Of a DNA stretch of 64,000 nucleotides, positions 24,239 to 24,311 are shown piece by piece. The stretch spans positions 722,726 to 786,725 of the forward strand of contig NZ_RJVI01000001.1 in the NCBI RefSeq assembly GCF_003751635.1, given 5' to 3'. The position numbers and the translations under genes are program-made. Position 1 is the stretch's first letter. The number at the start of each line of letters is the position of its first letter. The notes under the pieces were generated by a model, which was not told the origin of the DNA, did not search any database, and saw only the letters and a program-made list of their open reading frames with translations. This DNA is from Inmirania thermothiophila (lineage in GTDB: Bacteria > Pseudomonadota > Gammaproteobacteria > DSM-100275).

Positions 24239-24267
24239 TTGACAGCCCCGCAAGGGGTGCCTAGAAT
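24239..24267 (+). promoter_or_regulatory. Near-consensus sigma-70 promoter of the str operon
   Basis: TTGACA (24239-24244), a 17-base spacer and TAGAAT (24262-24267) form the strongest-looking promoter in the window, 77 bases before rpsL. The transcript would start near 24274 and would run at once into the hairpin at 24280-24303. Confidence 0.8.
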
Positions 24268-24279
24268 CCCGCTTCTCCC

Positions 24280-24311
24280 GACAGGCCGGTGCGCCGGCCT
24301 GTCTTTTATTT
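24280..24311 (+). terminator. Canonical intrinsic terminator hairpin in the rpsL leader
   Basis: A perfect 10-bp stem (GACAGGCCGG with CCGGCCTGTC) closes a TGCG loop and is followed by TTTTATTT. It lies only about 6 bases past the predicted start of the str transcript and 33 bases before rpsL. It is either the rpoBC terminator, which would conflict with the promoter just upstream, or an attenuator for rpsL-rpsG-fusA-tuf. Confidence 0.7.

Follow-up and report, generated by a model that had tools for sequence, protein, structure and literature searches.

The str operon supplies ribosomal components together with the two main elongation factors, and in Inmirania thermothiophila its near-consensus promoter runs almost directly into a hairpin with the form of an intrinsic terminator. 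This arrangement raises the question of whether the hairpin belongs to the str operon as a control element or marks the end of the rpoBC operon next to it. We analyzed a window of 64,000 nucleotides around the locus (72% G+C, from a genome of 2.6 Mb) and compared the leader with those of other Gammaproteobacteria. The parts of the locus described next lie on the plus strand, and coordinates are positions in the window. The upstream neighbor of the str operon is rpoC (20005-24210), with the stop codon ending at 24210. It is followed by a sigma-70-type promoter, TTGACA-17-TAGAAT (24239-24267), in which the -35 element (24239-24244) and the -10 element (24262-24267) are separated by a 17-nt spacer and together match 11 of the 12 consensus letters. 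A G+C-rich discriminator (CCCGC), typical of promoters under stringent control, and a pyrimidine-rich start region (TTCTCCC) occupy 24268-24279, and the next base begins a perfect 10-bp hairpin, GACAGGCCGG-TGCG-CCGGCCTGTC (24280-24303; arms 24280-24289 and 24294-24303, loop TGCG). The interrupted T tract TTTTATTT (24304-24311), the predicted 3' end of a stub RNA, completes the terminator-like unit. The remainder of the 5' UTR (24312-24343) includes the ribosome binding site (GGAG, 24331-24334) and leads to rpsL (24344-24718, ATG at 24344), which encodes S12 and is the first gene of rpsL-rpsG-fusA-tuf. Direct reading of the DNA thus confirms every part of this succession between rpoC and rpsL as the initial annotation had described it.

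The S12 protein is at most 94% identical to those of other genomes of the class, and the organism is alone in its family and order among the genomes compared, so the comparison was made at the class level. An rpsL match was found in 321 of the 369 class genomes, and we examined the 110 loci, own genome included, with rpsL most similar to the query. A promoter matching at least 10 of the 12 consensus letters precedes rpsL in 108 of them (mean of 2.0 in shuffled sequences). When the best consensus match was picked for each locus, the -35 element was an exact TTGACA in 99 of the 108 and the spacer was 17 nt long in 83 and 18 nt long in 25. In plasmid records, there were two matches, both within rpoC, and the leader was unmatched.

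Within the Inmirania genome, promoters of this quality are rare: TTGACA-N16-18-TANNAT occurs five times in 2.6 Mb and the backward control never. The str promoter is the sole match of a promoter scan of positions 20000-30000 (shuffles: mean 0.5) and, of the two sites in the 64-kb window that match 10 or more of the 12 consensus letters on either strand, the only one with 11. The other of these two sites, TTGACA-17-CACAAT at 10541-10569, lies just 5' of a tRNA cluster that starts at 10588. The four further genomic occurrences of TTGACA-N16-18-TANNAT precede a tRNA gene and bioB-, ispB-, and yceD-like genes, as judged by sequence reading, and the 44 nt downstream of these promoters fold at only -7 to -12 kcal/mol, against -21.7 kcal/mol at str. 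A small inverted repeat, CCCC-GCAA-GGGG (24246-24257), was also noticed inside the str promoter spacer, between the -35 and -10 elements.

Position frequencies over the 108 loci locate the likely transcription start. C is found eight bases past the -10 element in 89% of the loci and T at each of the three following positions in 68-75%. Because of this conserved C, the start is more likely at 24275 (range 24274-24276) than at 24274 and the stub would be about 36 nt long, a slight refinement of the start near 24274 and the stub of about 38 bases that were initially predicted. The boxA element of Nus antitermination reads CTCTTTAACA, and it was considered as a further feature since relatives read CTCTTTGACA in this region. 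We set it aside because the letters straddle the likely start, so that the RNA would hold only part of them.

The hairpin stands out in its own genome. It has the form of an intrinsic terminator, with a G+C-rich stem (10 pairs, eight of them G-C) and a T-rich tail (seven T among the first eight bases). Four terminator-like sites were found in positions 20000-30000 (shuffles: mean 3.3), and the str hairpin has 10 pairs, compared with five or six in the others. The 38-nt RNA from 24274 to 24311 folds at -21.4 kcal/mol, versus -8.9 kcal/mol for shuffled sequences (z = -5.4, 0 of 200 shuffles as good), and the predicted fold of the full leader leaves the stem intact, with only about 5 nt preceding it. 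In this fold, the 5'-terminal CUCC (24275-24278) pairs with the GGAG of the ribosome binding site. The palindrome GACAGGC-N4-16-GCCTGTC occurs in the whole genome at the str site only (reported once per strand), and the str hairpin is likewise the only match of covariance model R1, described below, in this genome at E ≤ 0.01. That the hairpin is a generic terminator picked up by chance is disfavored, given that the palindrome is unique in the genome and that the strong R1 matches in the class fall at rpsL.

The initial annotation had left the conservation of the promoter-hairpin arrangement to be checked in related genomes, and we find it to be widespread. After removal of two loci lacking a promoter call and two with leaders shorter than 45 nt, 106 loci were kept. 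A T-tailed hairpin, searched for 3-19 nt past the -10 element, was found 5-18 nt past it in 71 of these, own genome included, compared with 1.75 on average and never more than 5 in 20 dinucleotide shuffles; the other 35 have no hairpin in this slot by the criteria used. In 66 of the 71, the hairpin starts 9-15 nt past the -10 element, and the motif ACAGG...CCTGT is present in 38 of the 106 loci versus 0.05 in shuffles. The median energy of the 71 hairpins is -19.8 kcal/mol, and 51 score above zero, as terminators, by a terminator formula. The distance from the -10 element to the hairpin has a standard deviation of 2.0 nt, which is partly fixed by the 3-19 nt search window, whereas that from the hairpin to rpsL has one of 48.2 nt over the same 71 loci.

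Because this count looked only near the promoter, we also searched the whole gap between rpoC and rpsL. Among the 83 loci with any T-tailed hairpin, the best one lay in the 17-nt promoter slot in 56, against 8.3 expected from even placement, and the offsets within the slot had a standard deviation of 1.95 nt. In the other 27 of the 83, the best hairpin lay elsewhere, in many cases no more than 40 nt from the rpoC stop codon, as a plain rpoC terminator would be. No T-tailed hairpin was found anywhere in the gap in 12 of the 95 loci with rpoC upstream. The position of the slot hairpin is not set by the stop codon of the upstream gene, from which it is separated by 39-394 nt (standard deviation of 73.8 nt over 63 loci with rpoC upstream).

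The hairpins also share sequence and covary. The 71 hairpins comprise 67 distinct sequences with loops of up to 10 nt, from which 14 divergent ones were removed by eye to give an alignment of 53 rows; the covariation counts below therefore describe a chosen core. The stem often reads GACAGGCC...GGCCTGTC, and in the alignment a lower stem of C-GACAGG / CCTGTC-G carries an upper stem and loop that vary, with TTT-R-TTTT as the tail. Eleven of the 12 stem pairs change on both sides, with a covariation of 0.382, compared with 0.191 in shuffled alignments and at most 0.113 with slid partners. One-sided changes to G-U pairs are frequent in the stem and would favor pairing in RNA over a palindromic DNA operator. 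The loop is free to vary in length and sequence, and there is no conserved bulge. In the tail, columns 44-46 hold T in 42-50 of the 53 sequences and columns 48-51 in 37-49, and the interrupting column 47 holds it in only 17.

Covariance model R1 matched 125 of the 369 class genomes at E ≤ 0.01 and 82 at E ≤ 1e-5, never twice in one genome at the latter threshold. The position of rpsL was listed for the genomes of 56 of these 82 matches, and all 56, many of which belong to the training set, lie on the same strand as rpsL and at most 219 nt upstream of it. Training had not used 26 of the strong matches; of these, 23 are upstream of rpsL on the same strand, one directly follows rpoC at the end of a contig, and two are elsewhere. 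Inspection by eye found TTGAC(A/G) within 50 nt upstream in 23 of the 24 untrained leaders, L245 being the exception. Shared position extends further than shared sequence, as R1 reached E ≤ 0.001 in only five of 80 named loci, of which one (L007) is probably the same genome as a training row (L178), and no Pseudomonas locus reached E = 0.1. The next matches among the named loci were L049 (E = 0.0096), directly behind an alphaproteobacterial rpoC, and L029 (E = 0.066). In a sample of 299 genomes from the phylum, R1 produced 21 matches at E ≤ 1e-4, of which 14 fell in other classes, and none of the 11 of these that were inspected (all except G433, G476, and G492) lies at rpsL. Several of 16 R1 matches away from rpsL (these 11 and five from the same class) resemble gene-end terminators, and one (L251) falls inside a coding frame. 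In five loci of one non-gammaproteobacterial family (L226-L229 and L250), the match lies 24-32 nt after the end of apparently the same gene and looks like a conserved gene-end terminator.

At roughly even confidence, we read the hairpin as a leader element of the str operon, namely, an intrinsic terminator that is leaky and is held about 5 nt past the transcription start. We computed its anatomy, its constant position behind the promoter, how far it is conserved, its covariation, how specific it is to rpsL, and its short, interrupted T tract; that it terminates transcription, to what extent it does so, and that read-through is regulated, we infer. The initial annotation had proposed a candidate str attenuator at this single locus, and conservation strengthens that proposal, through the fixed place after the promoter, the covariation, and the persistence of the hairpin where no co-directional gene lies upstream, and would widen it to a family; the regulated read-through that was part of it keeps the conditional standing just given. 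As judged from the sequences compared, the hairpin probably acts as a built-in brake that holds back ribosome production, beyond marking where a neighboring operon ends.

In the proposed mechanism, RNA polymerase starting near 24275 would make the hairpin within the first 30 nucleotides. A fraction of the polymerases would stop at 24304-24311 and release the stub of about 36 nt, and the remaining ones would continue into rpsL-rpsG-fusA-tuf. The stem begins so near the 5' end that it leaves no space for an upstream antiterminator helix of useful length, and for this reason, the choice between stopping and reading on is most likely kinetic or driven by a factor (elongation speed, NusA or NusG, ppGpp). 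The effect would run parallel to that of the G+C-rich discriminator of stringent type. The short, interrupted T tract suggests that the terminator is kept leaky: the longest T run has a median of 4 in the 24 untrained leaders versus 6.5 in the 16 R1 matches away from rpsL (p ~ 1e-5), a contrast that is suggestive only, as the comparators were picked by R1 itself, which may favor long T tracts. Weighing against this reading are the 35 of 106 loci with no slot hairpin, the 27 of 83 whose best hairpin lies elsewhere, and the weak stem of two enterobacterial loci described below. The leader yielded no ligand or partner structure, and a plain helix with a variable loop makes a poor protein-binding site. 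If this is how the leader works, an attenuator with no antiterminator would join the control of initiation with that of elongation.

The best-surviving alternative, which we nevertheless consider unlikely, is that the hairpin does no more than terminate the rpoBC operon, with the str promoter packed onto it, and that str transcripts mostly ignore it or start elsewhere. In Inmirania, the hairpin is on the same strand as rpoC, 69 nt past its stop codon, and the scan found no other terminator-like site in the gap. Against this, it is the promoter that sets the place of the hairpin in the unrestricted search, and the hairpin is kept where rpoC is not the neighbor. In two genomes of one genus (L102 and L161), the upstream neighbor is a divergent DsbD_2 gene, and both the promoter and the hairpin (GCAGGCCGG...CCGGCCTGT) are retained; a family mate (L158) has rpoC upstream. 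In another locus (L118), the hairpin is kept behind csrA. Furthermore, a second terminator-like hairpin lies between rpoC and the -35 element in 10 of the 50 slot loci with room for one (shuffles: mean 1.4, maximum 5), and some of these second hairpins (L089, L129, and L095) are plain strong terminators. The persistence behind divergent genes and csrA, together with these additional upstream hairpins, indicates that the slot hairpin is not only the end of rpoBC.

Part of this alternative is likely to hold alongside the leader element. An upstream hairpin is more common in loci with no slot hairpin, 11 of 25 versus 10 of 50 (Fisher p = 0.054, with relatedness ignored), and room for an upstream hairpin is lacking in 16 of 66 slot loci versus 2 of 27 others. 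Since a separate rpoC terminator tends to be present where the slot hairpin is missing, the slot hairpin probably serves also to halt polymerases running on from rpoBC. Most simply, it would have two roles, as a leader element of str and as a stop for rpoBC read-through where nothing else stops it. The initial annotation had offered, as its second option, that rpoBC ends at this hairpin and str starts later; the first half is thus probably also true, and the later start is disfavored.

Slightly less probable still is that the hairpin, as a stem-loop at the 5' terminus, protects the str mRNA from decay dependent on the 5' end, with the T tract being incidental. The stem lies within about 5 nt of the likely start, a position that such a function would explain. 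In two enterobacterial loci (L014, Kosakonia, and L015, Citrobacter), a weak stem, CCTCATA...TATGAGG (-6.4 kcal/mol), about 67 nt before rpsL and followed by TCGTTTTATT, would begin at the first base of the transcript and is by score too weak to terminate; it is possibly a decayed or 5'-protecting form. Protection has no need of a T tract, yet T is kept in 37-50 of the 53 aligned sequences on both sides of the interrupting column, and a single-stranded 5' end of 4-6 nt would not be fully protected.

It is improbable that the hairpin is an autoregulatory site at which one of the operon's ribosomal proteins (S7 or S12) stabilizes or opens it. Ribosomal operons are often regulated in this manner, S7 regulates the Escherichia coli str operon according to the available text of one report (PMC10931766), and conservation of the lower stem extends to both sequence and structure. 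The freely varying loop and the lack of a conserved bulge speak against it. The known S7 site in the same E. coli operon is, in the portion of that report available, a translational one located between rpsL and rpsG and not at the promoter (PMC10931766). Very improbable is that the stub itself acts as a small regulatory RNA, for although a short, stable stem-loop would be made from a strong promoter, with a precedent in the greA leader (PMC2965389), its 5' tail is a few pyrimidines and its loop is variable, leaving no conserved single-stranded seed.

Attenuation of rpsL is itself a published idea (PMC2965389; Rfam RF01773). In the available text of Naville and Gautheret (2010), it is proposed for Listeria, Xanthomonas, Pseudomonas, and Rickettsia, with a potential antiterminator in each case and no globally conserved feature of sequence or structure, and the same text cites an earlier prediction of rpsL attenuation by Merino and Yanofsky (PMC2965389). 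Those attenuators resemble the present element in having a terminator-like hairpin in the 5' UTR, on the same strand as rpsL and kept at the same place in relatives. They differ in that potential antiterminators are drawn for them, whereas the stem described here is too near the 5' end for an upstream one, and in that the present hairpins form one promoter-anchored family with a recurring stem sequence in many gammaproteobacterial families. Structured RNAs 5' of rpsL are also predicted, in the accessible parts of the respective papers, for Shewanella (PMC2659441) and for Pelagibacter, where the motif, found only there and in marine metagenomes, is a three-stem junction and so differs from the hairpin described here (PMC2704228). 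The E. coli greA leader likewise yields a short, promoter-proximal terminated transcript, reported as a small RNA, but it precedes another gene, is unrelated in sequence, and has a described antiterminator (PMC2965389).

Literature searches for rpsL leaders and attenuators turned up no description of a common promoter-anchored hairpin like this one. The main text of a study of E. coli 3' ends, as far as available, does not name rpsL (PMC7815308), and the table seen of another source lists no S12 leader (PMC7247131). A premature rpsL 3' terminus is reported in stationary-phase enteropathogenic E. coli, and its position is not given in the available text, so it is not counted as support here (PMC10687069). 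What is new relative to this prior work is a promoter-anchored family that is common, goes unscored by RF01773, and leaves almost no room for an upstream antiterminator.

An Rfam scan of the element produced nothing at the gathering threshold and only sub-gathering matches in a permissive scan. The Pseudomonas family RF01773 (rpsL_pseudo), which shares with the Inmirania leader a T-tailed hairpin directly upstream of rpsL, has no match in positions 23900-25300 at E ≤ 10 and none in the window at gathering (70 bits). It reaches gathering in five of 20 loci scanned, all five from Pseudomonas. In one Pseudomonas locus (L047, match at 1366-1501), the third of the four RF01773 helices forms a T-tailed hairpin in that same promoter slot, the first overlaps the predicted -35 element, and the second extends from just past the -35 element to about nine bases beyond the -10 element. 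If the called promoter is right, most of the first two helices is not transcribed from it, and they may represent promoter DNA, with an inverted repeat around the -10 element, instead of leader RNA.

These observations lead to a tentative proposal, which we regard as possible although doubtful, that much of Gammaproteobacteria shares one ancestral form of str control. It would combine a promoter of stringent type with a deliberately leaky terminator a few nucleotides past the start site, and polymerase speed or a bound elongation factor would decide how many initiations yield mRNA for S12, S7, EF-G, and EF-Tu, with no antiterminator; the rpsL leaders of Pseudomonas and Xanthomonas would be divergent forms of it, and the upstream helices of the Rfam family would be promoter DNA. 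If a leaky terminator anchored to the promoter is indeed a widespread means of str control in Gammaproteobacteria, the scattered and seemingly unrelated rpsL attenuators would become one testable system, and the same reading offers a concrete, testable correction to an Rfam family. Four further loci (L041, L031, L036, and L030) resemble L047 by sequence in the overlap between the RF01773 helices and the promoter.
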